The translations under genes were made by a program, and so were the position numbers. From positions 1 through 64,000 of the forward strand of contig NZ_WSZK01000028.1 in NCBI RefSeq assembly GCF_009791395.1: 64,000 bases of DNA, in the 5' to 3' direction. Below, one piece after another: positions 7,660 through 31,007 of this stretch; within the stretch, counting starts at the first letter, position 1, and every line of letters starts with the position of its first letter. This DNA comes from Halomarina oriensis. GTDB taxonomy: Archaea > Halobacteriota > Halobacteria > Halobacteriales > Haloarculaceae. A model generated the notes under the pieces. The model made no database searches. It was not told the origin of the DNA and saw only the letters and a list, made by a program, of their open reading frames with translations.

Positions 7660-7675
7660 CAGATTCACGATTCAT

Positions 7676-14831: not shown

Positions 14832-15020
14832 ATGGTGAGCAATTTGACATATTCTGCGGAACAGCCCTCTGTTCAATCAACCGATTCGTCGGGTGATATT
14901 ATTTCAACAGTAATTCGTCAGAGGGAGGGAGTTCACTCAGGTGATCGAATTGTGTGGCAGGGAATCGAGTTCAAGGGCCTCTCTGGATACATCTCAATGC
15001 CCCCAGAGGACCGATCGTGA
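14832..15020 (+). CDS. Small polar protein coupled to the GT2 glycosyltransferase
   Basis: 62 residues from ATG 14832, beginning MVSNLTYSAEQPSVQ. The TGA stop overlaps the GTG start of the glycosyltransferase (GTGA), the main evidence that it is translated. The composition is less acidic and the DNA more A+T-rich than neighbouring genes. No domain recognised; it could also be a leader peptide that couples translation to the next gene. Confidence 0.4.
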   Translation: MVSNLTYSAEQPSVQSTDSSGDIISTVIRQREGVHSGDRIVWQGIEFKGLSGYISMPPEDRS

Positions 15021-16378: not shown

Positions 16379-16549
16379 CGTGTCCATAGTTTAATTCACC
16401 CCGAACAGGACCGTTTGAGTGCGGTTCTCCAACCGCATGTATCAGAGGACGGAAGATGGTCTCTGGGCCGGCCCCACGTGGCTAACACGGCCCCCGTTTC
16501 GAGCGTCGATTCGTGACCAGCAGACTCCTTGTATCAATCCGATAGCCAC
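16379..16549 (+). other. Intergenic spacer with two hairpins, possible terminator
   Basis: Between the GT2 gene and the next promoter no gene is seen. Positions 16421-16436 form a perfect 6-base-pair hairpin (GCGGTT, loop CTCC, AACCGC). A second inverted repeat pairs GGGCCG (16465-16470) with CGGCCC (16488-16493). The first hairpin is the best terminator candidate for the glycosyltransferase transcript, although no T-run follows. Confidence 0.45.
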
Positions 16550-16570
16550 AATATACCCACAGAACGCCTT
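16550..16570 (+). promoter_or_regulatory. Shared promoter motif, copy 2 (1379-residue protein)
   Basis: AATATACCCACAGAACGCCTT with CACAGAACG at 16558-16566 and exactly 30 bases to the ATG at 16597. CACAGAACG is identical to copy 1, and the start context TGTGACATGGCAG matches copies 1 (TGACATGGC) and 3. TGTATCA at 16530-16536 upstream also occurs, inverted, twice in the copy 1/copy 3 region. Confidence 0.7.
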
Positions 16571-16596
16571 AGCAGGTTGATTCCCGATTCTGTGAC

Positions 16597-19500
16597 ATGG
16601 CAGATACTTCGCGCTTCGGCGCTGCCGCCGGGTCGGGTGGGTCCAGTTCCAGTTCCTCGACCGACAGTAGCGACACGACAGATAGCTCCTCGTCCTCGAC
16701 ATCTTCATCGACGGAGTCGAACTCGACATCGTCGACGTCGAACGACTACACCAGCGGTCCTCGGCCGGCGATTCGACCCGTCAGTGACTCGGACGGTGGG
16801 TCCAGCAGTGGCTCCTCGGGCTCCGGCGGCGGGTCGACCTCCGATTCCGGGTCGACCGGCGTCTACGAACCCGGTCCCTCCCAGGGCTCGGACTCGACTA
16901 CCGACACGCAGTCACCGACCGGTGGGTCGAACCCCGCCGTCCGACCGGCCGACGGGTCGGAGCCGAACAGCGGCGACGGTGGTGGGAGTGGTGGTTCGTC
17001 TTCCGACTCGTCCAGTCGCCCGAGCGTTCGCGACAACCAGACGCGCGGGACGAACCCGCTGACCGACGTCGACGGCGACGGGTCGAGCGACTACGGCACG
17101 ACAACCGAGAACGTCGAGGACGAAGCGCCGACGAATCCCGAGCCGGTCACGGTCTCTCGACAGGACCGCGACAGCGACGGTGACGGCCTCACGCAGGCGC
17201 AGAACCAGAATATCGACGCAGCCGTCCAGGGTCTCGAGGACCGCGCCCTTCAGGATGCGCAGGGCATCGAGACCGAGCGCTCCGCTCGCGGGCGGCGTGC
17301 CCGGCAGGTCGAACGCGGGTTCATCGACAGCATCGAAGCTCAGCAGGGCGTCCAACTCTCGCGTGATGACGTCGCTATCGTCGAGGGGCCGAACGGCCAG
17401 CCCCAGCCCGAACTCGTCGCCGCTGCTCGCGAGCGTTTGGGGGTGAACCCCACCGACGAGGAGATCGCCCGCGACGTCGCCGGCCAGGAGGCCGGCCTCG
17501 ACGCCGAGGACATCGAGGTCACTCGCTCGGGTACCGTCGACGAACAGGCGGTGTCGGTCGCGCTCACCGGCCGGGCACGTGCCGAGCGGATGCGCCAGGA
17601 GATCCTCGCCGAGAACCCCGACCTCGACCCGACCGACCTCGTCATCAACGACCAGGATGGCGACGGCGACCTCGACCCGCGGCTCACCAACGCCGCGAAG
17701 ATTCGCCGAGCGCGCGAGAGCGTGGCCGCGGAGGTGCCCGGTGTGGGGGCGAACGAAGACCAGATCAGCGTCGACATCGACGACGACGGCCGGGCGGTTG
17801 CCGAGCTGACCCAGAGCGGGCGGGATGCCTACCGCTTCGAGTTAGTCCGCCAGGCTCCTGAGGGCGCGAAGCGGGCCGTGGCGGCCAGTGAGCGAATGGA
17901 CGTCGCCAGCGACGAGTTCCGCGCGCGGATGCGCATCGCCGAGGCGAACGCCGACATCGACGTCGAGGACCTGGAAGTGCGTCGAGACACCGTGTTGGTC
18001 AGAAATTCGTCGGGGGAGTTGGCGGCGCGTGACGACTCCTCGTTCGGCCTCACCGAGGACGCCACCCGTGAGCAGCTGGCTCGGGAGTTCGGCATCGACG
18101 AGAGCGAGATCGAGTTGGACCGGAACGCCCAGGGCGGCTGGGAGGCCGACTTCTCCGCCGAGGCCGCACGGGAGATTCAGTCGCGCGAACCCGAGCGCTT
18201 CGGAGACGACGGTGGCCGAGTGCTGGGCATCCAGGGTGGCGAGGAGTTCCTCGATGGGTTGAGTCGAGGGTTCAGGTCCGAGATAGTCGACCCCGTCGCC
18301 GGTGCAGCCGGGGTGAGTGCGCGTTACTCGCCCGTGGCGCTCGTCGAGGACCGAGTGACGGGAACGAACGTGACCGAGCGCTCCGTCGAGTCGTTCGTTC
18401 AGGGCGTCGGTGACGTGCTCGACGTCCCGCAGATTGTTCGTGGGTTGGACGAAGGTGGCGAGTTGATTGCGTACAACGTCGAGGGGTTCAACGACGGCCG
18501 AGGGAGAGAGACGGTCGGCGAGACGGTCAGTGCGGGCGTGATGGCAGGTGACTCGTTCAAGACCCGACTGACATCCCGACCGTGGGAGACAGGGAGCCGA
18601 ATCGCCGGGTCTTTCGTCGGTGTGGCAGGCACGGTCGGGGCCGCCTCGCGAGTCTCCGGGACAGCTGGCCGCGCGACCTCGGTCGCACTCCAGCCCATCG
18701 AGGAGGGCGCACGACTCGGGGCCGGCGCTGCGGGCCTCCCGACCACGCTTCGGGGAGCGGCCGCCAGCGCTCGGGGCGTCTCCTTCCAGACACCGTCGGC
18801 TCGAGGACGCGCGGGGAGTGTTCGCGAGCGCTTCCGCGGCGACGGCGAGAGTGAGTTCGAGGTCTCCTTTGAGCGGGATGCCGACGCCGGGCTCGTCGAG
18901 ATCGACCCGCAGGTCCGACGCCAGGCGCTCGAACGCCTCGCCGACGCTGACCTGGCTGCTCGCGACCTCCGGGCACGAGTCGCGGGCGTGCCCAGCACCA
19001 TCAGTGACGCCGCCTCCGAGATCGGGACGGGCACGCTCCGCTCGGGGGCCGACTCCGCGACGGTCACTCGCTCGGTCGTCGACAGCGTCCGAGAAGGAAC
19101 TGCACGCGCCGGCGCAGAAGCGCTCAGGCGACGCGCTGACGCCGAACTCGCCGCCGGAGGAGCCCAGCAACAGCTTCGCGAGAGCGTCGACAGTGCCGCC
19201 GACGCAGGCGAGCAGGCCGCCACGGAGGCGGCGTTCCGTGCCCAGACCGGCCGCCTCGACGCGGAGGTGGCCGCCGGACAGGTCGGGCCGGCGCTGCGCG
19301 ACTCCGCGGTCCAGGCTAGGTTCGACCTCCAGACCGCCCGCCTGGACGCCGAGGTCGCCGGCCGTCGAGTTCCGCAAGCGGCCCGACAGGGCGTCCGCGA
19401 CGTGGGGCTCGCCCTGGACACTGCGCGCCTCGACACGGAACTCGCGACCACTCAGGCGCGACGGCGGACGCGTGAGGCGCTCAGAGATGCCCCCGAGTCA

Positions 19501-20736
19501 GCCCTGTTCGCTGCTGACACCGCCCGCCTCGACGCGGAGGTAGCGTTCGGACAGGCCGTCGACAACGCCGTGCCACAGAGCGTTCGAGACGTGCAGGCGA
19601 CGCTGGAGGTCGAAGACTCGCTGGCCGAGGCGCTGGATGTCGCCGGCCGGCGTCGAATCGACGATGCCCGGTCGTCGTTCGCTATTCGCCGCTCGCTCGC
19701 CGGCGGCCGGGTCGAGGACCGTGTCGACCAGCTCCGAGACCTGCTGCCCGATAGAGCGCCCGACAGTCGACGGGTGCGCCCGGCCGACGAGTCGCTGCCC
19801 GAAGCCGCGTTCTACGCCGGTCGACGGCGACTCAGCGACGCCCGCTCGTCGATCGCCATCCAGCGAGCGCTCGTCGAGGGTCGGGCGGACCGAGCCGTTC
19901 GAAGTGGGCTGCTGGATGCTGATGATGCCGTCCGAGCGCTGCGCGACCTCCCAGACGACGCGACGATTCGCATCGGCCCGCGTCGCCCCGATCGGGTCGA
20001 GGAGCCGACGCTCGATGCCGACGCCGATGACCTCGAACTGGACATCTACGACGACCGCGACCGGGAGTTCCTCCGGATGGCGCTCGACGAGAGCACCGAC
20101 GGGAGCACGGGCCGACCGACGCAACTCCAGGCTGGCCAGAACCTCAACGATGGGGGCAGACAGCAGACCGTCACGCGCTTCGAGTCCGAGACGGAGTCGC
20201 GTGCGGAGTTAGAGGAGCTCCGGCGACAGGACGACCTCGTCGAACAGGCCCAGCGTGACAGCTTCCGGCGCGTCGAGACGAGCGTTCCTCGGGCCACGGA
20301 ACCAGCCGTCGACGACGGGTTCGAGACGTTCGAGGACGCACCGCCGACGAGTGTCGAACGCGAGATGGCGATGTTCGAGGCAGAGCTGGCCGACGACCTC
20401 GATGTGGGCCTCGACACGTCGACCGACCAGTTCGGCGACACTGACCTGGACACGTGGGAGGGGACGGCCTTCGAGACGCCGACGCGGTTCGACCAGCCAA
20501 CGGGCTCGGAGTTCGAGACCGAGATGCGCTTCGACCTCGACCGCCGAACTCGCCAGCGCTTCCGGACGCCGGCCGACCCCGCGCCCCGCCGAGGCGGCCG
20601 GGAACTCACCGACGTGCCACCAGAAGACGAGTTCGGCGACGACTGGTTCACCGACGAGAGCGCTGTCGATGAGGTGTTCGACACTGGCATCGCCAGCGGC
20701 GACGACGTGTTGGAACAGGACTTCTGGGAGAACTGA
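16597..20736 (+). CDS. Giant Ser-rich, repeat-containing acidic protein with calcium-binding-like motifs
   Basis: 1379 residues. Residues about 1-170 are a Ser/Gly/Asp-rich disordered region. Four Asp-rich loops of the EF-hand/dockerin kind follow (DVDGDGSSDYG, DRDSDGDGLTQAQ, NDQDGDGDLDPRL, DIDDDGRAVAE). The middle is alternating helical and short beta segments. A central stretch (about 640-735) rich in Gly and Ala (AGAAGV, AGTVGAAS) may contact membranes. From about 760 to 1110 runs a degenerate helical repeat whose core is TARLDAEVA (at least four clear copies plus variants ending in ARSSFAIRRSLAGG). The C-terminus is very acidic. No signal peptide. It has its own shared-type promoter. A long internal scaffold, tape-measure-like or matrix protein is one guess; no family recognised. 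Confidence 0.7.
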   Translation: MADTSRFGAAAGSGGSSSSSSTDSSDTTDSSSSSTSSSTESNSTSSTSNDYTSGPRPAIRPVSDSDGGSSSGSSGSGGGSTSDSGSTGVYEPGPSQGSDSTTDTQSPTGGSNPAVRPADGSEPNSGDGGGSGGSSSDSSSRPSVRDNQTRGTNPLTDVDGDGSSDYGTTTENVEDEAPTNPEPVTVSRQDRDSDGDGLTQAQNQNIDAAVQGLEDRALQDAQGIETERSARGRRARQVERGFIDSIEAQQGVQLSRDDVAIVEGPNGQPQPELVAAARERLGVNPTDEEIARDVAGQEAGLDAEDIEVTRSGTVDEQAVSVALTGRARAERMRQEILAENPDLDPTDLVINDQDGDGDLDPRLTNAAKIRRARESVAAEVPGVGANEDQISVDIDDDGRAVAELTQSGRDAYRFELVRQAPEGAKRAVAASERMDVASDEFRARMRIAEANADIDVEDLEVRRDTVLVRNSSGELAARDDSSFGLTEDATREQLAREFGIDESEIELDRNAQGGWEADFSAEAAREIQSREPERFGDDGGRVLGIQGGEEFLDGLSRGFRSEIVDPVAGAAGVSARYSPVALVEDRVTGTNVTERSVESFVQGVGDVLDVPQIVRGLDEGGELIAYNVEGFNDGRGRETVGETVSAGVMAGDSFKTRLTSRPWETGSRIAGSFVGVAGTVGAASRVSGTAGRATSVALQPIEEGARLGAGAAGLPTTLRGAAASARGVSFQTPSARGRAGSVRERFRGDGESEFEVSFERDADAGLVEIDPQVRRQALERLADADLAARDLRARVAGVPSTISDAASEIGTGTLRSGADSATVTRSVVDSVREGTARAGAEALRRRADAELAAGGAQQQLRESVDSAADAGEQAATEAAFRAQTGRLDAEVAAGQVGPALRDSAVQARFDLQTARLDAEVAGRRVPQAARQGVRDVGLALDTARLDTELATTQARRRTREALRDAPESALFAADTARLDAEVAFGQAVDNAVPQSVRDVQATLEVEDSLAEALDVAGRRRIDDARSSFAIRRSLAGGRVEDRVDQLRDLLPDRAPDSRRVRPADESLPEAAFYAGRRRLSDARSSIAIQRALVEGRADRAVRSGLLDADDAVRALRDLPDDATIRIGPRRPDRVEEPTLDADADDLELDIYDDRDREFLRMALDESTDGSTGRPTQLQAGQNLNDGGRQQTVTRFESETESRAELEELRRQDDLVEQAQRDSFRRVETSVPRATEPAVDDGFETFEDAPPTSVEREMAMFEAELADDLDVGLDTSTDQFGDTDLDTWEGTAFETPTRFDQPTGSEFETEMRFDLDRRTRQRFRTPADPAPRRGGRELTDVPPEDEFGDDWFTDESAVDEVFDTGIASGDDVLEQDFWEN

Positions 20737-20739
20737 GCT

Positions 20740-20922
20740 TCAGACAGAAGCTTTGAGCCACTCGAAGGAGAGGTCGAGTGCCAGTTCGACTTTCGCCGCA
20801 GCAACTGGGTCTACCGCTTTCAGTATCCCGAACCCGAAGCAGAAAGCCATCAGCGCGAGAAACGCGTAGAGTTCGAGTCGATCCCACAGATGGAAGCGTG
20901 GGCCGCCTCTGGACTGTGCCAT
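20740..20922 (-). CDS. Small single-helix membrane protein
   Basis: 60 residues with one hydrophobic helix (about 18-38). Convergent with the giant gene, three bases from its stop. The ATG at 20922 is preceded on the minus strand by GGAACTCTTATTT, with CTTATTT at about -29 to -23, a good leaderless TATA placement reminiscent of the element's shared promoters. Its size and membrane helix are typical of the element; function unknown. Confidence 0.5.
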   Translation of the reverse strand: MAQSRGGPRFHLWDRLELYAFLALMAFCFGFGILKAVDPVAAAKVELALDLSFEWLKASV

Positions 20923-20962
20923 GTTCTGACTGGTTGGTTATCGGAAATAAGAGTTCCGGCGT

Positions 20963-21208
20963 TCAGGCGACCGCCGGTTCGCTCCCGTCCTCGTTCTCGA
21001 TCTCCTCGACGGTCACCTTCTCGTCGGCCGTGAGCGTCACCCGGTAGCCGTGGAACCGAATCGTCACTATCCCGTGGTCTCGCCCGCGAAAGAGCTGGTC
21101 GAGGGCGTCAGGGTCGGTCGCCTGATAGAGTTCAGGAACCAGTTCGTGCGGTGCGACGCCTTCACGCCGGGCGACGGTCTCGACGATTCGTGTCGACGGG
21201 GACGGCAT
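20963..21208 (-). CDS. HalOD1 output-domain protein
   Basis: 81 residues from ATG 21208. The sequence has the HalOD1 layout, a domain so far typical of haloarchaea: an N-terminal helix RIVETVARREGVAPHELVPELYQATDPDALDQLF, then a strand pair IVTIRFHGYRVTLTADEKVTVEE. HalOD1 is usually a stand-alone or receiver-linked output module thought to act in signalling or gene control. The frame stays open upstream to 21529 within the neighbouring gene; that extension is rejected. It lies in the element's regulatory block. Confidence 0.75.
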   Translation of the reverse strand: MPSPSTRIVETVARREGVAPHELVPELYQATDPDALDQLFRGRDHGIVTIRFHGYRVTLTADEKVTVEEIENEDGSEPAVA

Positions 21209-21267
21209 ATCAGAATGGATGACTCTCTGAAAGTAAGTGTTCCGCACAGAATGGCGGCTCTGGTGGT

Positions 21268-21846
21268 TCAGTCTCGGTTCCGAACTGGCGTGAGCGTCGA
21301 CTCGAAGCCCGCCTCCTCGGCCATCACCGAGAATTTCCCGAAGCGAACGGTCAGTTGCCACCGTGTCGCTTCCGAGTGCTCGATCACCTCGTCGATGGTC
21401 GGGTTCCGACCGAGTTCCTCGCCGACCTGCCGAATCCGCTCGACGACGTCTTCTCGGGTCACGTCGGGTTCGGGCTCGACGTTCGGCTCCAGTCCGATCT
21501 CTTTGAGCGCATCCGTCCAGCTTCCCCACCGTGACTTGAAACCGGAGGCAGGGAGCAGCGAGCGTTCGTCGAACGCACGGCGCGTCGGTGTTCGGCCCAG
21601 CTCGGCGGCGACTGCCTCCAGTTCGTTCAGCAGAAGCTCGTCGGGGAGGCCCCGGACGGTCGTCGGCTCCATCCCCGCCGCGAGTTGGGCGCTCGCCAGC
21701 GAGCCGAACACCTGGTGGACGTGATTCGAGGGAAACGAAGCGTGTGCTTTGATGTCCTCGGTTCGAGGGACACGTTCGACTTCGGCGGCGATGGTCCGGA
21801 GCTCCTCGACGATGACGCGTTCGGCGAGATGGGGCTCCTCGCTCAT
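21268..21846 (-). CDS. Protein of three tandem HNH-associated (homing endonuclease-like) helical repeats
   Basis: 192 residues from ATG 21846. Three repeats of about 55 residues are visible: VEELRTIAAEVERVPRTEDI...VFGSLASAQLAAGMEP, NELEAVAAELGRTPTRRAF...RWGSWTDALKEIGLEP, and ERIRQVGEELGRNPTIDEV...RFGKFSVMAEEAGFES. The LGRxPT and FGSW...A..AG pattern is that of the DNA-binding repeat found beside HNH nuclease domains in haloarchaea. No nuclease domain is present. Three stacked repeats suggest sequence-specific DNA binding, so a regulator of the element is likely. Confidence 0.75.
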   Translation of the reverse strand: MSEEPHLAERVIVEELRTIAAEVERVPRTEDIKAHASFPSNHVHQVFGSLASAQLAAGMEPTTVRGLPDELLLNELEAVAAELGRTPTRRAFDERSLLPASGFKSRWGSWTDALKEIGLEPNVEPEPDVTREDVVERIRQVGEELGRNPTIDEVIEHSEATRWQLTVRFGKFSVMAEEAGFESTLTPVRNRD

Positions 21847-21936
21847 GGTCGCGTGGTGACTGCTGGATAAACTAATCAGTTGGGGACTCAGCACGCGGTG
21901 GAAAGGGTTACTAGGAGACAGTCGCAACGAGAGGAT

Positions 21937-22530
21937 GTGACCGAGTACCCTGGACTGCCCACCGCCATCACACGCTTCTATCGGTCATTTTTGCTGGCAG
22001 GCATTCAGATGCTCATCGCGGGGGCTCCCTTCGCCGCAGTAGTGGTGATTCTCTTTGCCCACATATTTCCTGAAGCCGCCCCATACGGCCTGTTAAGTGC
22101 TGTTAATCTCGGATTGCTGTCGATGCTCAACCAGATACGTACGAACTCCGAATCACCGTCGGACAGTGAGACCGCGCCAACCTCGGAACCTGAATCGATC
22201 AGGGGGTTGCTGTTCGGGATGATCGTCATGATGCTCGTGCTCTGGGCGACGATGGTCGTGGTCGGCGGGACTATCGGCTATCTCCTCGCCTACCGGGCCG
22301 GCCTCCCGTATCTCGCTATCGTCGGCGCGGTCGTCTTTCCGCTCATCGATGACGAGTTGGGGCAGATTCACCCGTTCCTCTCACCATCGGTTCTCGCGCG
22401 CTACGCGGTGTTCTCGCCGTTGTATTCGCTGGGACTCATCGACGATTCGAACGAGTTTCTTCGCCGGTCGATCGTTCGCTCGTCGGCGGCACGTGCCGGT
22501 CAGTACAGTTACCGTTCGTCCGAAAGATAA
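21937..22530 (+). CDS. Multi-helix membrane protein
   Basis: 197 residues from GTG 21937, preferred over an upstream in-frame start because GGTTACTA sits about 27 bases before it. Hydrophobic helices lie at about 16-45, 50-66, 90-115 and 120-145, with a Ser/Glu-rich loop (NSESPSDSETAPTSEPES) in between. The 3' end overlaps the convergent gene 22509-22844 by 22 bases. No family recognised. Confidence 0.55.
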   Translation: MTEYPGLPTAITRFYRSFLLAGIQMLIAGAPFAAVVVILFAHIFPEAAPYGLLSAVNLGLLSMLNQIRTNSESPSDSETAPTSEPESIRGLLFGMIVMMLVLWATMVVVGGTIGYLLAYRAGLPYLAIVGAVVFPLIDDELGQIHPFLSPSVLARYAVFSPLYSLGLIDDSNEFLRRSIVRSSAARAGQYSYRSSER

Positions 22531-22844
22531 CACCAGACCAGACGGAGTGATGTCGTCGTTCCGGCGAGACAAACCACCCAGAAACCTAGCGTTGGCCCGA
22601 CAAACGGCAACTCCCCTACTGGAGCCATCCACGCGAAGGCCGCGAGGACAAGTCCAGCGACAAGAGAAAAGCAACCCTCGATAGCCAGCTTTGCGCCCAT
22701 CGCCGCCGACCGCTTCCAAATCGAGTTCGAGTACCGATACCCGACGAGGCGTTCTTGAAGCGTGATTTCGTTGTCTTCGTGGTTCTCGGGTGCGGCACCA
22801 TCGGCGTCCACCCCCTCACGCTCGACGGTCTGTTCCTCGCCCAT
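22509..22844 (-). CDS. Two-helix membrane protein
   Basis: 111 residues. An acidic N-terminus (about 1-28) precedes two hydrophobic segments (about 53-72 and 80-102). It lies downstream of the PhiH1-like repressor on the same strand and overlaps the convergent membrane gene at its 3' end. Sequence composition is less G+C-rich than the core of the element. No family recognised. Confidence 0.55.
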   Translation of the reverse strand: MGEEQTVEREGVDADGAAPENHEDNEITLQERLVGYRYSNSIWKRSAAMGAKLAIEGCFSLVAGLVLAAFAWMAPVGELPFVGPTLGFWVVCLAGTTTSLRLVWCYLSDER

Positions 22845-22888
22845 CCCCTCACGCGCCTCCCGGAATCCATGCCATCAAAATCAGACCG

Positions 22889-23251
22889 TTACGCGGGACT
22901 GCTACCGGAGCGGTCGTGCAAGCAATCGCTGTCCGAATCTGTACTCTCAGCCCATGTTTCTGCACTTTTCAGGAACTCTCGTGCTTCGTCGTGGCTGTAC
23001 TCGTCTTTGTGTTCGAGAGCCGCTATGCCGACAGGAGTGACGACGTACATGCCGGAATTGCCGGTCTCACCGACCTTCTCGACGTATCCAGCACCTGCTA
23101 ACGCGGCCAACCGGTTGTTCATATACTTCGATTTTTTGTCGAGTATCTCGGCGAGAAATGTTGCGGTAAAGCGCTTACCGTCTTTCATTTCTTCGAGTAT
23201 CTCGAAATCGGTCGGAACGACGAGTTTCACTACTTCTCGTTGGTTGGTCAC
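22889..23251 (-). CDS. PhiH1-type winged-helix repressor
   Basis: 120 residues starting at GTG 23251. A winged helix spans about 13-85: DFEILEEMKDGKRFTATFLAEIL, the recognition-helix region YMNNRLAALAGAGYVEKVG, and the wing YVVTPVGIAALEH. This is the pattern of the haloarchaeal phage PhiH repressor-like family, which controls lysogeny-type decisions in several haloarchaeal viruses and proviruses. It is transcribed divergently from the operon that ends in the integrase, across a 128-base region with several short palindromes. It probably represses that operon and itself. Confidence 0.8.
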   Translation of the reverse strand: MTNQREVVKLVVPTDFEILEEMKDGKRFTATFLAEILDKKSKYMNNRLAALAGAGYVEKVGETGNSGMYVVTPVGIAALEHKDEYSHDEAREFLKSAETWAESTDSDSDCLHDRSGSSPA

Positions 23252-23379
23252 AGGTGTTAACTCTTAATTTTTCTGATATGTGTGCTTTGCACTTGCCATT
23301 TCCTACTGGATATAGTACTTTGATACTCCATGTGCAATCTGCAAATGCTTAAGTCAGTTGGGCAGAACTAGTCGCGTAT
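23252..23379. promoter_or_regulatory. Divergent control region with candidate operators
   Basis: This A+T-rich region separates the repressor from the rightward operon. It contains the palindromes GTGC-TTT-GCAC (23282-23292) and AGTA-CTTTGA-TACT (23314-23327), and the related ATGTGCAATCTGCAAATGC (23330-23348). TGCTTAAG around 23346-23353 is a good TATA candidate for the rightward transcript, placing its start near 23375-23380. On the other strand AATTAAGAG lies before the repressor GTG. These are the obvious repressor binding-site candidates. Confidence 0.55.
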
Positions 23380-23457
23380 CAGCCCAGCGCGGCCGCTCCG
23401 CTGTGGAGCGTGTTGCTGCGAAACGCGACGGTGCATGAACACCGCCGCGCTGGGTTG
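23380..23457 (+). ncRNA. 78-base four-way cloverleaf: structured RNA or DNA element
   Basis: The sequence folds almost without unpaired junction bases. P1 pairs 23380-23393 with 23444-23457 (14 pairs, one G-T). P2 pairs CGCTCC (23394-23399) with GGAGCG (23405-23410) around a 5-base loop. After one free base, P3 pairs GTTGC (23412-23416) with GCGAC (23425-23429), one G-T wobble, around 8 bases. P4 pairs GGTG (23430-23433) with CACC (23440-23443). It begins about where the transcript from the TATA box near 23350 should start. It does not fit tRNA consensus. It could be a 5' leader RNA of the operon, a stable small RNA, or a cruciform DNA site for the integrase or for replication. Confidence 0.6.
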
Positions 23458-23467
23458 CAGAAGCCCG

Positions 23468-23650
23468 ATGAGAACAAACGCGAATCCGGAACAAAACCGT
23501 TCCGCACGACCGACGCACTGTCCTTCAGAACCGACTGTCCAGCGGCTCTTCCTCGCCGACCGTCACGAGACGATCGGGAAGCTGTTCGTCCTCACGCTCC
23601 TGGCACTCGCCGCACTCACCAGCGCGCTCACCACCGGGGTGATGCTCTGA
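23468..23650 (+). CDS. Small single-helix membrane protein, first gene of the integrase operon
   Basis: 60 residues from ATG 23468, just after the cloverleaf; an earlier in-frame ATG at 23435 lies inside the cloverleaf and is less likely. The polar N-terminal half is followed by one C-terminal helix (IGKLFVLTLLALAALTSALTTG). The stop shares a base with the next ATG (TGATG). Function unknown. Confidence 0.5.
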   Translation: MRTNANPEQNRSARPTHCPSEPTVQRLFLADRHETIGKLFVLTLLALAALTSALTTGVML

Positions 23651-24036
23651 TGCGTCACTGTCCCAGCTGCCGCGAGCCGATGCTCGCCATCGCCTCGCGC
23701 GGCCCCGGCGACCACCGCGCCTCGCCGTGTGGCTGTCGCGTCTCGGGGATTCAGACCCGCGGCGTCGTCGGCCACCAGAGCCTGCCCCAGACCGAGACCG
23801 ACCAAGGGCGCGTCGCCACCGACGGCGGTCTCCTCGAGGACGGCCAGACAGACGACCCGCAGGCGCTGGCGGCGTGCCGAGAGTGTGAAGCGCGCTGGAG
23901 CGCCCACGCGTTCGCACCCGGTGACGACGCCGGCCGCGAGTTCGTCACGAAGAGCGCTGAGAACCACGCCCGACGAACGAGCCACTCCGTCGACCTCGCA
24001 ATCGACGATGAACGCGACCAGGAGGTGACACGGTAG
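23650..24036 (+). CDS. Zinc-ribbon protein
   Basis: 128 residues from ATG 23650. The N-terminus has a ribbon-like pair CPSC (4-7) and CGC (about 31-33). A second pair CREC is at about 79-82. The remaining sequence is polar and disorder-like. The start is fixed by TGATG coupling. It is one of three consecutive zinc-motif proteins in the operon; a nucleic-acid-binding role is likely but unproven. Confidence 0.6.
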   Translation: MRHCPSCREPMLAIASRGPGDHRASPCGCRVSGIQTRGVVGHQSLPQTETDQGRVATDGGLLEDGQTDDPQALAACRECEARWSAHAFAPGDDAGREFVTKSAENHARRTSHSVDLAIDDERDQEVTR

Positions 24037-24384
24037 ATGGCCGTCGACGGACCGGTCCCAATCGTGACCGCCGGCGACTGCGCCTGTGGTGGCGCCTTCC
24101 TCGTCACCGCCGATAACGACCGCTCGCCACTGGTCGACACGGTCGAAGTGCCGTGCTCAAACCCGGCGTGCGACTGGACGAAGACGGTCTCCCAGAGAGG
24201 CGTCGACAGCGCTCGTGAGCGCGCCCTTGCCGAACGAACTGACCGGCCCGATGACGGTGGCCGAACTGACGACCGGACCCATGACGGGTCCGACGCGACC
24301 GACGCAACCCAGAACATGAACCCGAGAACCCAGCCCCAGAGTACCGACCACGACCAGCCCGCAGAGACGGAGGCTCAGCGATGA
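24037..24384 (+). CDS. Zinc-ribbon protein with a disordered polar tail
   Basis: 115 residues starting on the base after the previous stop. Residues about 14-48 contain CACGG and CSNPAC, a four-Cys ribbon (AGDCACGGAFLVTA, then VPCSNPACDW). The rest is a polar Asp/Thr/Gln-rich tail, probably disordered. Overlaps the next gene (ATGA). Confidence 0.6.
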   Translation: MAVDGPVPIVTAGDCACGGAFLVTADNDRSPLVDTVEVPCSNPACDWTKTVSQRGVDSARERALAERTDRPDDGGRTDDRTHDGSDATDATQNMNPRTQPQSTDHDQPAETEAQR

Positions 24385-25091
24385 AGCGGACCTCCTCTAC
24401 GAAGGTCACCATCACGCTCCGGGCCTACCGCGCAGCCGCGTTGTGCCTGCCAGAGCCCGATGCCGACCCGTGGTTGCTTCGAGACATCGACGGCCTGAAC
24501 CTCACGGCGCTCCGGGAGTTCCACCAGATCGGGGCGGTCGAGCAAGTCGACCGCGTCTATCCCGACAACCGAAAGACCCAGGGGCTGGTCTACCGCTGGA
24601 GTACCGACCGCGAGGCCTACAAGTACATCTCGGAGCACTTCTCCGAAGAGCAGATGATGCCGTGTGGCCACGAGCCGCTGCGCAACCTCCGTGACGGTGG
24701 CTTCTCCTGTCGGAACGACGACTGCGATGCCGAGTTCTCGCGCGCGGTCGCCGAGGCCGTTACCGGCTGGAAATCGACCGATAGAGCCAACATGTCAGAA
24801 AAATCACTCAGAGAGTGTTTTTATTCACCGCCTCACTCTGTCGAGTCAGTGCAACCCGGTGACAGTCCCGAGATTCGGACCGACGGCGGGGAAGCCGTCG
24901 ACACCGAGAGCGACGAGCCCGACCCACCGAGCTGGCAGTGGGAAGGGGCGTCGGCTCCCGACGGGTCACACATCCTCACCGGGTACAGCAACGAGGGTCG
25001 CTTCTCGCTGCGACTCCGCGACGAGGACCTCATGTTCCTCCGGGACTGGGCGAATCGCTCACTCGACGAGGATGGAGGTGAACAGGCGTGA
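24381..25091 (+). CDS. Winged-helix plus zinc-finger protein
   Basis: 236 residues. The N-terminal part (about 25-80) reads as a winged helix: LNLTALREFHQIGAVEQVDRVY, then LVYRWSTDREAYKYI. A Cys/His cluster follows (CGH at about 95, then FSCRNDDCDAEFS at about 107-118) and forms a plausible zinc finger. The acidic C-terminal half includes a WQWEGAS and YSNEGRFSLRLRDEDL beta-like region. Likely DNA-binding. It overlaps both neighbours by four bases. Family not recognised. Confidence 0.55.
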   Translation: MKRTSSTKVTITLRAYRAAALCLPEPDADPWLLRDIDGLNLTALREFHQIGAVEQVDRVYPDNRKTQGLVYRWSTDREAYKYISEHFSEEQMMPCGHEPLRNLRDGGFSCRNDDCDAEFSRAVAEAVTGWKSTDRANMSEKSLRECFYSPPHSVESVQPGDSPEIRTDGGEAVDTESDEPDPPSWQWEGASAPDGSHILTGYSNEGRFSLRLRDEDLMFLRDWANRSLDEDGGEQA

Positions 25092-25312
25092 GCGACGCCA
25101 AACCGTCGCAGGAAGTTCAGCAGGACGGCGACGGCCAGAACGTTTGGATAATCACTGTTCGAGACTCCGACTCGGGGAAGTGGACGCGAGACGTGTTCAT
25201 GGCGTACACACTCAATAACGCCAAGCATCAGGCGAAGTACGCCGTGCGAGACACCTACGGCGAACCGCAGGTAATCTACACTGAGGAGGTGGCTACCGAT
25301 GTCTCGGCCTGA
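25088..25312 (+). CDS. Small soluble protein of unknown function
   Basis: 74 residues from GTG 25088 (GTGA overlap with the previous stop). Predicted beta-alpha-beta: NVWIITVRDSDSGKW, DVFMAYTLNNAKHQAKYAV, PQVIYTEEV. This resembles small protein-interaction or modulator folds, but no family can be named. Its 3' end overlaps the next gene by 14 bases. Confidence 0.55.
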   Translation: MSDAKPSQEVQQDGDGQNVWIITVRDSDSGKWTRDVFMAYTLNNAKHQAKYAVRDTYGEPQVIYTEEVATDVSA

Positions 25313-25775
25313 TAAGCTCTCCACCAGCACTCCTCACGAACTTCCCGAAGACCTCCCCGAGTCGATCACCGTCGACGTCTCCATGGACGAGGCGCTCTGC
25401 GGTGACGACCCCGAGGACCACGACGACGAGTTCGTCGAGAAGTTCGTCAACTGGGAGGCAGAGATTCAGACCTCCAGCGCACTGAACGACCTCGCCAGTT
25501 CCTACGTTGACGAGGACGACGTCGGCCAGGCGACGTGCCTCCTGTGGGTCGACCAGGCGGAGGTCTATCCGGTCTGTGACGGCCACTACCTTGCGAAGAA
25601 GGACGGACAGTGGTCCGGATTCACCACGCACCCGAACTACCACCAGCTCCGTGAGCGGATGGAGCGCTCCGTCGAGGAGGGCCGCCACTGCTCGTTTTGC
25701 TATCGCGAGCGCGTGAAGGCACTTCGAGAGCGCATCGAAGACGTCGTCGACGTGGAGGTGGACGTCCAGCGATGA
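25299..25775 (+). CDS. Acidic protein with Cys/His motifs
   Basis: 158 residues. Strongly acidic. Possible metal ligands are spread through CDGHY (about 92-96), a later HPNYHQL and CSFC (about 131-134), giving a CxxH...CxxC pattern. Its stop overlaps the ATPase start (ATGA). It may be a small partner of that ATPase; no family recognised. Confidence 0.55.
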   Translation: MSRPDKLSTSTPHELPEDLPESITVDVSMDEALCGDDPEDHDDEFVEKFVNWEAEIQTSSALNDLASSYVDEDDVGQATCLLWVDQAEVYPVCDGHYLAKKDGQWSGFTTHPNYHQLRERMERSVEEGRHCSFCYRERVKALRERIEDVVDVEVDVQR

Positions 25776-27574
25776 CCGACTCTGCTAGCCAGGTCGTCCT
25801 CGGCGAACATACGTTCGACCCACTCGCCACCACCGATTTCAGACTCGCGGTCGAGGGAGCGTCGAAGACGGGCAAGAGCAACACGCTCGCAGTCATCCTC
25901 GAAGACCTCGCCGACGTCACCATTCCGACGATCGTCTTCGAGCGCCTCGGCATTCTTACGCCTGTCCGCCAGGTCGACGACGACATCGTGGTCGTCGGCG
26001 CTCGCGACGAACCCGGTATCGACCTCGCACTTCCGCTCGAACAAATCGACCTCGTCGCCGACCTCGTTCTCGAACGTGGATGGAAGGTCCTCGTCGACGT
26101 CTCCACCTACTCGGACCTCGACGATGACCCGGACCGTCACACCGAGCACGCGGCGGTCGCAACGGCGATGAAGGCGCTGAACGACCAGGCCCAGGCGCGA
26201 CTTCGCGCCGGCAATCGACGGAAGGCCCTCGTCATCATCGACGAGGCCCACGTCTTGGCTCCCGAGAACAATGCGCCACACATCGATTTAGATGACGACG
26301 TCCGCCGAGCCCGCGCCCAGATCGTGAAGCTCGCCACCGAAGGCGGGAACAAGGGTCTCACGCTCATCAGCGCGTACCAGCGCCGAGCGTACGTCTCGAA
26401 GGCCGTCGTCAGCCAGACGGACAACTTCGTCGTTCACCGACTCCACGCGACCGACCGGAAGGACGTCGCTCGCGAAATCGGCGTCGACGCCGAGGAGATC
26501 GAGGCGCTCGACATCGGCGAGGTGCTGGTCTACGGTGACTTCACGCGCCAGCGTGTCGTCGGTCCGACGACGGTTCGTCGACGAGCCTCACCGGACCCGC
26601 GCGAGGAGTCGTTCGAAGTTCCCGACCCACCGGCGGAACTCACCGCTGCGCTCGCTGACCTCCGCGATGAAATCGATGCTCGTGAAGAGCAACAGGAGCA
26701 GCGGCGTGACCGCATCGAAGAACTCGAACAGCAGGTCGAACGACTGGAAGAGGAACGGGAGGACCTCCGCGAACAGGCCGACGTCAACGAGCGCATCGCC
26801 CGCGCGTTCGAGACCATCCAGGAGGGCGGCGTCGCAACCGACGCTGCCGAGGTCGAACTCGTCGGCGAGGTCGAGGAGCTCCGAGACCGGAACGACCGTC
26901 TCGAAACAGAACTCGCCAGCGTGCGCGGTGACCTCGAAGACGCCGAGGTCGAGATCCGTGAGCGCGACGAGCGCATCGAGGAGCTCGAAACCGAACTCGC
27001 GGAGTACCGCGAACTCGATGTCGTACGCGAGGAGGTGACAAGCGCTGCGCGGACCATCCTCCGCCAGATGGGAGAGGCCGACCCCGAGGTCGAGGACATC
27101 CAGGAGGAGCTCAGCGAGGCTCGCGAACGAAACCGCGAACTCGAAGCGACCGTCGAGGACCTTCGTGCGGACGTCCAGCAGGCGCGAGCGGAGGGCGTCA
27201 CGCCTTCCGAGGAGTTCGAGTCACGACTTGATTTCCTCCGGCACGACGCCGTTCAGGAGGCCGTCCAGCGGGCGAACGCACAGACCAGCACCGACATCGA
27301 CCACGCCTGGGACGTGCTGTTCTACCTCGCTGACGACGACGTCGACTCAGCGAGTCGTGACGACCTCACGAGCATTGTCGACATCCATCGCGACAACATC
27401 GGGAAGGTGCTGAACAAACTCGCGGAGAAGGACGTGGTCACGACGGGTCGCGACGGTCGGAAGAAGACCTACCAGCTCAACGTCGACGGCCTGGAGCGAA
27501 TCGTCGAGAACCACCAGAAGAAAGCCGAGATGGCACAGTTCAGAGAAGAACTGACGAACGGAGGGACGACATGA
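25772..27574 (+). CDS. HerA-like P-loop ATPase with coiled coil and C-terminal winged helix
   Basis: 600 residues from ATG 25772 (ATGA overlap); an in-frame upstream extension to 25697 is a basic artefact. Walker A is GASKTGKSNT (29-38), Walker B is KALVIIDEAHVL (151-162), and the sensor-like QRRAYVSKAVVSQTDNFVVHRL follows, matching the HerA/DUF87 family of DNA-translocating ATPases. Residues about 290-500 form a long acidic coiled coil (EEQQEQRRDRIEELEQQVERLEEE and onward). The last 100 residues contain a winged helix (LTSIVDIHRDNIGKVLNKLAEKDVVTTG). It shares an operon with the integrase, suggesting DNA handling in replication, segregation or transfer. Confidence 0.8.
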   Translation: MTDSASQVVLGEHTFDPLATTDFRLAVEGASKTGKSNTLAVILEDLADVTIPTIVFERLGILTPVRQVDDDIVVVGARDEPGIDLALPLEQIDLVADLVLERGWKVLVDVSTYSDLDDDPDRHTEHAAVATAMKALNDQAQARLRAGNRRKALVIIDEAHVLAPENNAPHIDLDDDVRRARAQIVKLATEGGNKGLTLISAYQRRAYVSKAVVSQTDNFVVHRLHATDRKDVAREIGVDAEEIEALDIGEVLVYGDFTRQRVVGPTTVRRRASPDPREESFEVPDPPAELTAALADLRDEIDAREEQQEQRRDRIEELEQQVERLEEEREDLREQADVNERIARAFETIQEGGVATDAAEVELVGEVEELRDRNDRLETELASVRGDLEDAEVEIRERDERIEELETELAEYRELDVVREEVTSAARTILRQMGEADPEVEDIQEELSEARERNRELEATVEDLRADVQQARAEGVTPSEEFESRLDFLRHDAVQEAVQRANAQTSTDIDHAWDVLFYLADDDVDSASRDDLTSIVDIHRDNIGKVLNKLAEKDVVTTGRDGRKKTYQLNVDGLERIVENHQKKAEMAQFREELTNGGTT

Positions 27575-27915
27575 TGAGCGACCCCGAGAAAGCCAGCATC
27601 GAGAACTCGACGCTCATCACCGACCCCGAGAGCTCAAACCTCCCACTGGTCGCACGCCTCGTCGAGCCCGACACCCTCCCCGAAGACCTGGCCTGGGTCT
27701 GGGTCCTTGCTGCTGACGCCGTCATGCTCGGCGCGGTTGTCTGGCTGACGAATCCCATCCCGGAGTTTCGGGTGATGAGCACGCTGCTCGCTGGCGTGGC
27801 TGGGTTCGCCCTCTCCGCGCTCGCGGCGCTCGTCGCAGTCAACTGCCTCTACTGGCGCTGGACGGCTGCGCTCGAACGACACGGCCTCGTCTTGGAGGGT
27901 GAAGATGGCGAGTGA
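27571..27915 (+). CDS. Two-helix membrane protein
   Basis: 114 residues. A polar N-terminus is followed by helices at about 43-60 and 68-92 and a short acidic tail. The start overlaps the ATPase stop (ATGA), and its 3' end overlaps the integrase start by about a dozen bases. A membrane anchor for the upstream ATPase is possible. No family recognised. Confidence 0.55.
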   Translation: MMSDPEKASIENSTLITDPESSNLPLVARLVEPDTLPEDLAWVWVLAADAVMLGAVVWLTNPIPEFRVMSTLLAGVAGFALSALAALVAVNCLYWRWTAALERHGLVLEGEDGE

Positions 27916-29002
27916 GCAGCTAGCGTCTCTCGCGCCACGTGAGGCGATGGAGATGTGGCTCGACCGCCAGCGCTCCGAACGCGCCGAGGCCACCGTCCAG
28001 AGCTACTACTACCGCGTGAAGCAGTTCGTCGAGTGGTGTGAAGCGGAAGGCGTCGGCGACCTCAACGACCTCGACGGTCGCGACCTCTATCGCTACGACG
28101 CACACCTGCGGTCGGGCGACCGGAGCGTCTCGGCGCTGAACAACATGCTCGGGACCCTCCGGCGGTTCCTCGCGTTCTGTGCGGATGTCGAGGCGGTCGC
28201 GGAGACGCTGCCCCCGAAACTCGACGTCCCGCAGCTGACGAAGACCGACCGGACCAGCGACACCAAGCTCACCAGCGAACGAGCGGAAGTCATCGGCGAG
28301 GCGCTCGACCGCTTCGATTACGCCTCCCGTGACCACGTCCTGTTTGGGCTCGCCTGGCACACCTGTGCCCGAGTCGGTGGCCTCCACTCGCTGGACGTCC
28401 AGGACTGCTTCCTCGACGAGAGTGACATCGTTCGGTTGCGCCATCTGGATGACATCGACGAAGCCGTTCTCGACGAGGTCGACCTCCCGTTCATCTACTT
28501 CCGGCACCGCGAGACGACGCCGCTGAAGAATGGCCTCGAGGGCGAGCGGCCGGTCGCACTCTCCGAGGAGATGGGTGACCTCATCGCAACGTACCAGCGC
28601 GTGAAGCGCGCCCGCGTTCAGGACGAACAGGGCCGTGAAGCCCTGTTCTCGACGGAGAAGGGCCGGGGACGGATGTCGAAAGGAGCCATGCGTGCGCGCC
28701 TGAACATCGTCACCCAGCCCTGCCGGTTCGGCCTCGACTGCCCACACGGGCGCGATCTCGACACCTGCGAGGCACGTGAACACGGCTACGAATCGCGCTG
28801 TCCCTCCTCGCGAAGTCCACACCCCATCCGCACGGGCGGGATCACCCATCACCTCGACGTCGGCTGGCCCATTGAGGACCTCTCCGAGCGGGTCAACGCA
28901 ACGCCGCAGGTCATCCGCGACCATTACGACAAGCCCGACCTCCTGCGCCGGATGCAGAAGCGTCGCGACCACGTCTCGCGGCTCTCGGGTGATGTCGCAT
29001 GA
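27905..29002 (+). CDS. Tyrosine recombinase/integrase
   Basis: 365 residues from ATG 27905 (a GTG at 27899 is an alternative). An N-terminal SAM-like core-binding domain (about 10-100, ATVQSYYYRVKQFVEWC and SALNNMLGTLRRFLAFC) precedes the catalytic domain: Arg 156 in CARVGGLHSLDV, the H306-x-x-R309 box in HPIRTGG, and Tyr 341 in IRDHYDKPDL. A four-Cys insert (CRFGLDCPHGRDLDTCEA...RC, about 273-299) before the HxxR box is probably zinc-binding and recurs in haloarchaeal integrases. It catalyses site-specific integration and excision. It is last in the operon controlled by the PhiH1-like repressor. Confidence 0.9.
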   Translation: MASEQLASLAPREAMEMWLDRQRSERAEATVQSYYYRVKQFVEWCEAEGVGDLNDLDGRDLYRYDAHLRSGDRSVSALNNMLGTLRRFLAFCADVEAVAETLPPKLDVPQLTKTDRTSDTKLTSERAEVIGEALDRFDYASRDHVLFGLAWHTCARVGGLHSLDVQDCFLDESDIVRLRHLDDIDEAVLDEVDLPFIYFRHRETTPLKNGLEGERPVALSEEMGDLIATYQRVKRARVQDEQGREALFSTEKGRGRMSKGAMRARLNIVTQPCRFGLDCPHGRDLDTCEAREHGYESRCPSSRSPHPIRTGGITHHLDVGWPIEDLSERVNATPQVIRDHYDKPDLLRRMQKRRDHVSRLSGDVA

Positions 29003-29110
29003 CCGAGCGACGGCGTCGAACGGCTTGCGCCAGAGGGGTTTCGCTTACCTCAGCGGTCCCATACTTCTGTCGCGAGCGAGTCCGCGAGCGACGGGGCTCG
29101 ACGGAACAGG

Positions 29111-29194
29111 GATTGGGGCAGCGAGCGCCGCGAATCGTCCACCCCGTTCGACGGTCGACTCGCGGCTCGGTTTGTACGTTGTGATTGGGGCAGC
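29111..29194 (+). repeat. 12-base direct repeat downstream of the integrase
   Basis: GATTGGGGCAGC occurs at 29111-29122 and again at 29183-29194, 72 bases apart, in the 266-base non-coding interval between the integrase stop and the chromosomal transporter gene. This is where an attachment site would be expected. No matching copy is seen at the left of the window, so its role is undecided. Confidence 0.35.
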
Positions 29195-29268
29195 ACTGTA
29201 CTGATTCCACCACAGGTTGCTGATACCAAAAGCCGCTAACCGCTGGCACGGGTTGTGGCTGACACTCA

Positions 29269-30555
29269 ATGTCACATCGAGACTCGAGTAAGAACCGGTG
29301 GCTCATCGCACTGGGTGCCGTCGCGATCCACCTCTCCATCGGGAGTATCTACGCGTACAGCATCTACCAGAACCCGCTGAACGAGAGCGTCGGCTGGAGC
29401 ACCTCGACGGTGACGCTCGGGTTCTCCATCGCGGTGTTCGTCCTCGGCATCACCGCCGCGTTCCTCGGGAAGTACGTCGAGGAGTACGGCCCCCGGAAGG
29501 CGGGGCTCGCCGCCGCCGTACTGTACGGCCTCGGGATGGTCGGCTCCGGTCTGAGCGTCCAACTCGGCAGTCTCCCGATGTTCCTCGCCACGTTCGGCGT
29601 CGTCGGCGGGATGGGCATCGGCCTGGGCTACATCTCGCCCATCGGGACGCTCGTCGAGTGGTTCCCCGACCGTCGGGGGATGGCGACGGGACTGGCGGTG
29701 ATGGGCTTCGGTGCGGGAGCGCTCCTCACCGGGCCGCTCGGGAACTATCTCATCCAGGGGTACGGCGTCGCGACGACGTTCTACGCGCTCGGGGCGCTCT
29801 ACTTCGTCCTGATGACGCTCGGTGCCAGCTACCTCCAGAAGCCGGGGAAAGACTGGCTCCCCGAGGGGATGCAGGACGAGGAGAACGCCCAGGAGAAGGC
29901 CAGCGGTGCGCTGTCGGGACTCGACGTCATGACCGCGGCACAGGCACGGACCTCGCCGCGGTTCTACCTCGTCTGGCTCATCATCTTCATCAACGTCTCG
30001 GCGGGCATCATGCTGCTCGCGTTCGCCTCGCCGATGCTCCAGCGAATCGCCGGTGCCGACGCGACGACGGCCGCGTTCATCGTCGGCTACATCGGCATCT
30101 TCAACGGCGGCGGGCGTATCTTCTGGTCGACCGTCTCCGACTACATCGGCCGGACGACGACCTACGGCGCGTTCATGGTCATCCAGATACTGGCGTTCGC
30201 CGTGATGCCGGAAGTCGCGGGCGTCTGGATGCTCGCCGGTCTGCTCTTCCTCGTCATCACCTGTTACGGGGGCGGGTTCGCCTGCCTGCCGGCGTACCTC
30301 AGTGACCTCTTCGGGACGAAGGAGGTCAGCGCCATCCACGGCTACGCGCTGACCGCGTGGAGTGCCGCCGGTATCGCCGGTCCGCAACTCGCGTCGTTCG
30401 TCCTCGATACGACCGGCAACTACACGAGTGCGCTGTACGTCATCAACGCCGCTCTCGTCGTCGGCCTCGTCGTCGTGGCCGTCCTGCGCTGGCGCATCGG
30501 GAAGCTCAAAGAGTCGAATCGTTCGTCGGGGCACACCGGCGCGACCACCGACTGA
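29269..30555 (+). CDS. OFA-family MFS transporter
   Basis: 428 residues with 12 predicted helices. The N-terminal LGAVAIHLSIGSIYAYSIYQNPL and the loop-2 region GKYVEEYGPRKAG, plus YISPIGTLVEWFPDRRGMATGLAVMGFGAGAL, are typical of the oxalate/formate antiporter (OFA) subfamily of the major facilitator superfamily. These carry small carboxylates such as oxalate, formate or pyruvate across the plasma membrane. The substrate cannot be fixed from sequence. First gene of the chromosomal flank. Confidence 0.88.
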   Translation: MSHRDSSKNRWLIALGAVAIHLSIGSIYAYSIYQNPLNESVGWSTSTVTLGFSIAVFVLGITAAFLGKYVEEYGPRKAGLAAAVLYGLGMVGSGLSVQLGSLPMFLATFGVVGGMGIGLGYISPIGTLVEWFPDRRGMATGLAVMGFGAGALLTGPLGNYLIQGYGVATTFYALGALYFVLMTLGASYLQKPGKDWLPEGMQDEENAQEKASGALSGLDVMTAAQARTSPRFYLVWLIIFINVSAGIMLLAFASPMLQRIAGADATTAAFIVGYIGIFNGGGRIFWSTVSDYIGRTTTYGAFMVIQILAFAVMPEVAGVWMLAGLLFLVITCYGGGFACLPAYLSDLFGTKEVSAIHGYALTAWSAAGIAGPQLASFVLDTTGNYTSALYVINAALVVGLVVVAVLRWRIGKLKESNRSSGHTGATTD

Positions 30556-30579
30556 GACCGGCCGACCGGACCGCCGGTC
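30556..30579 (+). terminator. Hairpin terminator after the MFS gene
   Basis: GACCGGC (30556-30562) pairs with GCCGGTC (30573-30579), followed by CCTTCTTCTC. It lies right after the stop codon and between convergent genes, so it could end transcription from the left. Confidence 0.5.
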
Positions 30580-30611
30580 CCTTCTTCTCACTCGCCCGCC
30601 GGCAGCGCTCC

Positions 30612-31007
30612 CTACTGGCCCCCCAGACCCAGAACCGTCCGGGCGGTGGCCGACGTGAGCCGACTCTCCGGAGTCGCTTCGACGAACACGTGCAGTCCGA
30701 CCGTCGCTGGCTGCTCGCCGTCGTCGTGTTCTCGCTCTCTGTCGACCACCCAGCCGAAGTCCTCCGCCCGTCGCAGGAGGCGAGTCGCCCGCGTCGTCGA
30801 GACGACGAGCGTGTTCGTCGTCGTCGCCGCCTCTTCGGACGCGGTCACGTCGGCCGGCCGCGTCGCTCCGACCGCACCGACGAACGCACACGAGCGGTCG
30901 AGTCGCTCGACGTCCTCGGGGGCGAACGGTCGGTTCGGCATCGATTCGAGGACGCGGTGGCGCGTCCCACAGCGCTCGCACGTCGTCTCCAACTGGTGGT
31001 CCATCAT
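30612..31007 (-). CDS. Small protein with a CxxC motif
   Basis: 131 residues from ATG 31007. CERCGTRHR near the N-terminus suggests half of a zinc site. The later part has beta strands with a two-residue-class pattern (TLVVSTTRATRLLRRAEDFGWVVD, VGLHVFVEATPESRL). The longer reading starts with TTG at 31043 and is less likely. Convergent with the transporter gene and divergent from the next gene. No family recognised. Confidence 0.55.
   Translation of the reverse strand: MMDHQLETTCERCGTRHRVLESMPNRPFAPEDVERLDRSCAFVGAVGATRPADVTASEEAATTTNTLVVSTTRATRLLRRAEDFGWVVDREREHDDGEQPATVGLHVFVEATPESRLTSATARTVLGLGGQ

Follow-up and report, generated by a model that had tools for sequence, protein, structure and literature searches.

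Structured leaders at the head of SNJ2-type integration operons: a candidate RNA family in Halobacteriales

Positions 23380-23457 of the window (the whole 64-kb stretch of DNA analysed here) fold into a compact multi-branched structure that resembles structured leaders found at the head of integration operons in haloarchaeal viruses, plasmids and proviruses. We hold with high confidence that these leaders form a real, conserved RNA family, and we consider the window very probably a member of it, although a divergent one. The reading that we prefer overall, at somewhat better than even confidence, is that the window carries the structured 5′ leader of an operon mRNA, belonging to an uncatalogued family tied to SNJ2-type integration modules and acting as a switch. 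The switch mechanism itself, deduced from sequence comparison, we place slightly short of even.

Results

An exact four-way fold precedes the integrase operon

A first-pass annotation of this DNA had described a fully paired cloverleaf, and the fold is present exactly as claimed, with 14 closing pairs, hairpins of 6, 5 and 4 pairs and one unpaired junction base (Table 1). The two G-T pairs that it reported correspond to G.U 23382.23455, the only one in the closing stem 23380-23393/23444-23457, and to G.U 23414.23427. The minimum free energy is -50.6 kcal/mol (z = -6.2), a stability equalled by 0 of 200 dinucleotide shuffles, and among 80-nt windows across the whole 64 kb the fold has the second-largest stability excess for its G+C content. 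The largest excess, at 33129-33208, lies within a coding gene for a membrane protein and is probably a codon-usage palindrome. On the plus strand from 15001 to 31000, the sole 78-nt window with a terminal stem of at least 10 pairs, at least two branches and at most four junction bases is 23380-23457, and a far weaker multi-branch criterion was reached by 1 of 4,000 shuffles of the fold's own bases. The DNA is strongly palindromic on both strands. ARAGORN and Rfam give no tRNA in the fold, as the first-pass annotation had held, and the Rfam search that it had proposed, run against release 15, found no family matching the fold at or above the gathering threshold; readings of the fold as a tRNA, a terminator or an Rfam family were rejected.

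The fold occupies non-coding DNA between an operon and a divergent winged-helix regulator, which is likely the repressor; a 41% identical relative of this regulator adjoins another leader, at locus L029. Its 3′ end lies 10 nt 5′ of the first start codon, at 23468, a start chosen by codon usage, and another in-frame ATG, at 23435, lies inside it. The C-terminal segment of the predicted first gene product probably spans the membrane. An integrase closes this run of about nine same-strand genes and is 33-40% identical to integrases of HRPV9, HHPV4, SNJ2, Halfgib1, Humcor2 and others. The operon's ATPase is related to that of the Halobacterium phage ChaoS9 and to those of several proviruses; a locus search with it as the single query protein returned no relatives. 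These HerA/DUF87-like ATPases (window 25772-27574, L028-L034, ChaoS9 gp55) combine a coiled coil with a C-terminal winged helix and are 51-53% identical over the ATPase part between the haloarchaeal myovirus and several proviruses.

Table 1. Features at and around the leader, in window positions
Feature	Position	Strand	Basis
Divergent small winged-helix/MarR-type transcriptional regulator	22889-23251	-	PHROG 2440 transcriptional regulator, 6.9e-7; weak Pfam HTH matches
TATA-like box CTTAAGT	23348-23354	+	Sequence; 32 nt before 23380
Strand A, 5′ strand of closing stem, predicted 5′ end of transcript	23380-23393	+	Fold; TATA spacing
Hairpin H1, 6 pairs, 5-nt loop	23394-23410	+	Fold; equivalent of the first conserved hairpin in models R1 and R2
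Single unpaired junction base	23411	+	Fold
Hairpin 2 of the first-pass annotation, 5 pairs, one G.U at 23414.23427; loop with GAAAC	23412-23429	+	Fold
H2 in family-consensus form: GCG-A-CGGUG, 6-nt loop, CACCG-C-CGC	23425-23448	+	Covariance-model alignments
4-pair hairpin GGUG/CACC	23430-23443	+	Fold
Strand B, 3′ strand of closing stem	23444-23457	+	Fold
Candidate strand C, AGCCC, pairing with GGGUU 23452-23456	23462-23466	+	Lies before the start codon; shuffle p = 0.54
First operon gene: 60-aa protein, hydrophobic C-terminal segment	23468-23650	+	Codon-usage gene finder; sequence
Operon body: CxxC protein, small proteins, HerA/DUF87-like ATPase (25772-27574), membrane protein	23652-27915	+	
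SNJ2-type tyrosine integrase	27947-29002	+	Pfam Phage_int_SAM_1, 7.5e-8

The integrase leads to related leaders

When 146 family genomes were searched for DNA similar to the window's fold, the fold itself and one chance 78% match whose flanks do not fold came back, so we took the integrase as the anchor for finding relatives. In SNJ2, HRPV9, HHPV4, Halfgib1, Humcor2 and Harhisp1, the stretch that separates the divergent regulator from the integrase operon has a multi-branched fold, whose long closing stem finishes just 5′ of the first start codon. From the integrase alignment (A1), 80 loci were drawn from genomes, and 34 leaders chosen from these loci and from viruses show this architecture, both by eye and by scan, with a regulator-to-leader distance of typically 143-152 nt. 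Scans for competing folds proved too noisy: a permissive start-codon scan was swamped by G+C-rich chance folds, with both strands equal, and a stricter one was clean only at the very top (11 versus 0 at the highest threshold). We therefore relied on homology, through the integrase anchor and two covariance models: R1, built from the 34 leaders as a three-way junction, and the broader R2, with the window in neither training set. Structural alignments were taken from these models because MAFFT misaligned hairpins H1 and H2.

R1 gave 41 strong plus-strand matches in the loci, including the untrained L064, L079, L099, L107, L136 and a second copy in L070, and it matches the leader of plasmid pHK2 at 92 bits; R2 also retrieves relatives foretold by eye (L043, L034, HHPV4 and L076). 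At E <= 1e-4, on the shortened calibrations that underlie the E-values of both models, R1 matches 171 of the 392 Halobacteriales genomes searched, which represent 49 of 95 genera, with at most nine copies per genome, and in a sample of 295 genomes across the phylum, matches fall within Halobacteriales only. When the best 30 matches of an RNA-only R1 search were fetched, all 30 lay within 1.5 kb of an SNJ2-type integrase. The leader stands at the matching place in the pleolipoviruses SNJ2, HRPV9, HHPV4, Halfgib1 and Humcor2, in pHK2 and in haloarchaeal proviruses, and the order of repressor, TATA box, leader, AUG, operon and integrase is common to SNJ2, HRPV9, Halfgib1, pHK2 and proviruses. Rfam 15 gives no match for the leaders of SNJ2, HRPV9, HHPV4, Halfgib1, Humcor2, Harhisp1 or the provirus loci.

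Searched over 17 kb of the window, R1 has its best match at exactly 23380-23457 (13.8 bits), and R2 likewise ranks this fold first, matching it at full length with 20.5 bits (E = 0.0012 in 17 kb). Within its own 4-Mb genome the fold ranks fourth, below sites at C30:93758 (an R2 training member), C7:652798 and C42:2557, which look like further leader copies with a layout similar to the window's. The C42 copy has a 15-nt first-hairpin stretch, CGGCCGCTCCGCTGT, in common with the window, and a perfect 16-bp closing stem. The window also shows the family layout, with a divergent wHTH repressor upstream and an SNJ2-type integrase operon downstream, and the position that the first-pass annotation had assigned to the fold, at the start of that operon, is conserved in relatives.

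Several of these loci yielded further observations. The second L070 copy (8561-8669), about 3 kb downstream of the first, is degenerate and has CTG in place of the start codon. In HHPV4 (L047, region 7540-7979), the GenBank ORF2 (minus strand, 7614-7979) overlies both the leader RNA and the next plus-strand ORF (MSESTITGLQ...), and its annotation is probably wrong. The first ORF in L045, L046, L047 and L068-L072 often carries a GGGG...CCCC hairpin some 15-20 bases after the first ATG, which partly encodes a G-L-(E/K)-x-P motif, so conservation could be at the protein or the RNA level. The divergent region of ChaoS9 has a multi-branched fold near gp63/gp64, and neither R1 nor R2 matches ChaoS9. 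A second mobile element, on contig C25 of the window's own genome (L035, 1580-1945), holds a strongly structured non-coding stretch of about 350 nt (z -4.9) between a divergent HTH gene and its operon. This stretch matches neither R1 nor R2 and no Rfam family at E up to 1; in the equivalent position, it may be a leader RNA that is unrelated or much larger.

Covariation supports a three-branched core

The covariation analysis that the first-pass annotation had suggested found compensatory changes in relatives. In alignment A4, where 40 leaders were aligned by the model and so fitted to the structure, the closing stem (strands A and B, A:B), H1 and H2 are 84% paired, with double changes in 18 of 28 pairs; the leaders are related sequences, and these counts are not phylogenetically independent events. 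The covariation score is 0.269, a value attained by 0 of 500 shuffled alignments (0.136), and shifting the partners by a single column makes it collapse. Since A4 was fitted to the structure, it matters that RNAalifold also recovered the closing stem, with compensatory pairs, from an unfitted MAFFT alignment. Among divergent leaders, the complementarity of A to its own B exceeded that to swapped partners (0 of 20,000 permutations). The deviations from Watson-Crick pairing in A:B, read on the transcribed strand, comprise 50 G.U versus 12 A.C; those in H2 comprise 23 A.C versus 9 G.U. The sense fold beats the antisense fold in 29 of 40 leaders, a modest excess (p = 0.015).

These alignments point to a three-way junction, made of the closing stem and two hairpins, as the core of the family; a fourth branch may be a peculiarity of the window. 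There, the second conserved hairpin, H2, ends in the 4-pair GGUG/CACC hairpin, and the 5-pair hairpin overlaps a linker that is conserved, unpaired and GAAA-rich in the family (GAAAC in the window). This 5-pair hairpin is not common to relatives in the comparative alignment, and we dropped the idea that it is conserved. The four-way form is nevertheless favoured by energy in the window, at -50.6 versus -37.2 kcal/mol for the three-way form (a difference of 13 kcal/mol). The cloverleaf originally described thus holds as an exact and more stable fold of the window, whereas comparison across the family supports three branches.

The closing stem begins at the predicted transcription start

The TATA box of archaeal promoters has its centre near -27. 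Across the 40 leaders, the distance from the TATA-like box to the first base of strand A has a median of 31 nt (10-90% range 30-39), and in the window it is 32 nt. With this spacing and the usual centre, the closing stem would start at, or within 1-2 nt of, the predicted first transcribed base, in agreement with the transcript start that had been predicted for the window. Phasing this strict makes a DNA-level element hard to argue and suits an RNA that hides its 5′ end in the fold. The earlier suggestion that the structure heading the integrase operon works as RNA is supported, RNA being the most likely level. Just upstream of the TATA box, each of the elements L066-L135 has a palindrome of its own (for example GTGCATTGTTCAATGCAC and GTGTTCAATAGAACAC); these are probably repressor operators that define immunity groups.

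A second pairing of strand B reaches the start codon

In the family, strand B is complementary both to A and to a third strand, C, a near-copy of A that stops 0-1 nt short of the start codon. Because B is complementary to both, A:B and B:C are mutually exclusive, an alternative that the first-pass annotation had overlooked. In the 40 leaders B:C is 90% paired and includes 5 doubly changed pairs (score 0.199 versus 0.080, 0 of 500), and a comparison of own with swapped partners among divergent leaders, in several of which C and the AUG were picked by eye, gave 0 of 20,000. In SNJ2, HRPV9 and Halfgib1, the start codon concerned is the one that the sequence record annotates. The energy of B:C minus that of A:B is +1.6 kcal/mol (s.d. 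2.3) across the 40 leaders, and A:B is the more stable pairing in 30 of them. The wobble-type deviations in B:C, on the coding strand, are 34 A.C and 0 G.U, unlike what would be expected from selection for perfect RNA pairing; B:C could be kept deliberately weaker than A:B, or C could be under another constraint, such as protein binding. In the window, B:C amounts to 5 pairs, not above chance (shuffle p = 0.54), and its energy is 9.3 kcal/mol less favourable than that of A:B. The window may therefore have lost the switch, and A:B is the one state with strong support there.

For the family, we propose a cis-acting strand-exchange switch, which would form a layer of control beside the repressor over the integration and excision genes. 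By comparison, transcription is predicted to begin at the first base of strand A, and A pairs with B, closing the junction of the two conserved hairpins, with B ending shortly before the first start codon. This state, in which the 5′ end is tucked away and the AUG region is free, would be stable and translated. Were A unavailable, because it is bound by a protein or an RNA or is absent from a transcript that starts downstream, B would pair with C, and the resulting state, with the AUG blocked and the 5′ end open, would be silent. Candidate triggers are a protein, an RNA or a choice of start site. The occlusion step is physically plausible in these cells, as synthetic riboswitches in Haloferax volcanii that bury the region up to the AUG regulate translation, and do so better at high salt (PMC8241225). 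As regards start-site choice, a review describes two alternative start sites for the SNJ2 orf1-3 operon, with a suggested role in lysogeny control (PMC8371274). A second TATA box in SNJ2 could give a transcript lacking strand A; it is not conserved among relatives, and such a transcript is therefore a possibility for SNJ2 alone.

Static RNA, operator, cruciform and small-RNA readings

The strongest competitor to the switch, in our view unlikely, is a static RNA structure at the 5′ terminus that protects the mRNA from 5′ decay or acts in antitermination, with B:C secondary. It would account for a closing stem at the predicted first transcribed base of a long operon and for the usually greater stability of A:B (30 of 40 leaders, and overwhelmingly so in the window), and the HK022 put RNA illustrates the principle in a phage (PMC9378689). 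It leaves unexplained, however, the covariation of B:C in 40 members and the placement of its 3′ arm 0-1 nt from the AUG, and a put-like role would have to cross the difference between the polymerases.

Improbable, in our judgement, is a DNA-level operator in which A, B and C are direct or inverted half-sites for the repressor, for Orf3-like MarR proteins or for an excision factor. The B:C dyad, with arms of about 10 bp and a 6-7-bp spacer that is nearly fixed in R1-type members, looks the part, as do the three alternating copies of one motif and the B:C deviations without G.U in the transcript. Yet the A/B/C sequence is the same in elements whose palindromes upstream of the TATA box differ, and therefore does not follow repressor specificity. 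In divergent members, moreover, the B-C spacing widens to 18-35 nt, with a nested hairpin in three, which is more natural for RNA than for an operator in DNA. Independent covariation is seen in H1 and H2, and the phasing to the predicted start holds within 1-2 nt.

The first-pass annotation had also raised a DNA cruciform acting in recombination or replication. Such a cruciform, for example a rolling-circle origin, a single-strand origin or an integrase target, we consider very improbable, even though the DNA is highly palindromic on both strands and hairpins take part in pleolipovirus replication (PMC13107129). The mapped SNJ2 origin hairpin lies downstream of orf19, away from the leader (PMC13107129), attP annotations fall beyond the integrase gene, and both the 50 G.U against 12 A.C on the coding strand of A:B and the strict TATA phasing speak against it. 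Least credible of all is a trans-acting small RNA (a decoy, an antisense RNA or a defence or counter-defence RNA) released from the mRNA, with the leader as its precursor. A compact fold of great stability and a predicted promoter of its own speak for this reading; against it, the operon's start codon lies directly 3′, and complementarity abutting the AUG is a cis feature.

Discussion

We tentatively extend the strand-exchange switch to a general proposal, which we rate below the mechanism itself: that archaeal viruses and plasmids widely use an RNA switch in which the bases at the 5′ end of the transcript compete with those before the AUG for one strand, so that start-site choice or a viral factor would set the translation of integration and excision genes, and with it the lysogeny decision, without a Shine-Dalgarno sequence. 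Haloarchaeal mRNAs are largely leaderless, and we know of almost no natural RNA switches in archaea. The leader occurs in nearly half of the sampled Halobacteriales genomes, is absent from Rfam and is tied to the genes by which viruses and plasmids enter and leave the chromosome. SNJ2 in Natrinema and pHK2 in Haloferax are tractable carriers of it, so control of archaeal-virus lysogeny by RNA refolding, beside repressors, is directly testable. The accessible pleolipovirus papers that we searched, a set outside which the primary SNJ2 papers (gky005, gkad125) fall, make no mention of a structured leader.

Among known systems, the leader family resembles translational riboswitches and other exclusive-stem switches in having two competing 5′ pairings, one of which closes on the translation start, and two states of nearly equal energy. 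Unlike riboswitches, it has no known aptamer and no Rfam match and needs no Shine-Dalgarno sequence, and its anti-sequester strand is the predicted extreme 5′ end of the transcript. The HK022 put RNA is likewise a structured cis RNA that opens the early operon of a temperate virus, but it works on bacterial RNA polymerase and has no alternative pairing that abuts a start codon. The SNJ2 replication origin offers a conserved hairpin region in the same betapleolipoviruses, but that hairpin lies downstream of the rep-arvir gene orf19 and acts as DNA with the Rep protein (PMC13107129); identity of the leader with an SNJ2-type rolling-circle origin was rejected, as the leader sits between the repressor and the int operon rather than downstream of orf19. 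The closest link is to the SNJ2-type integration module itself (int, orf2, orf3; PMC8371274), of whose operon the leader forms the 5′ end and to whose integrase family the window's integrase belongs. Structured mRNA leaders and competing stems are already known in kind; the family, its place in the integration modules of archaeal viruses and its Shine-Dalgarno-free design are absent from Rfam and from the accessible pleolipovirus papers searched.
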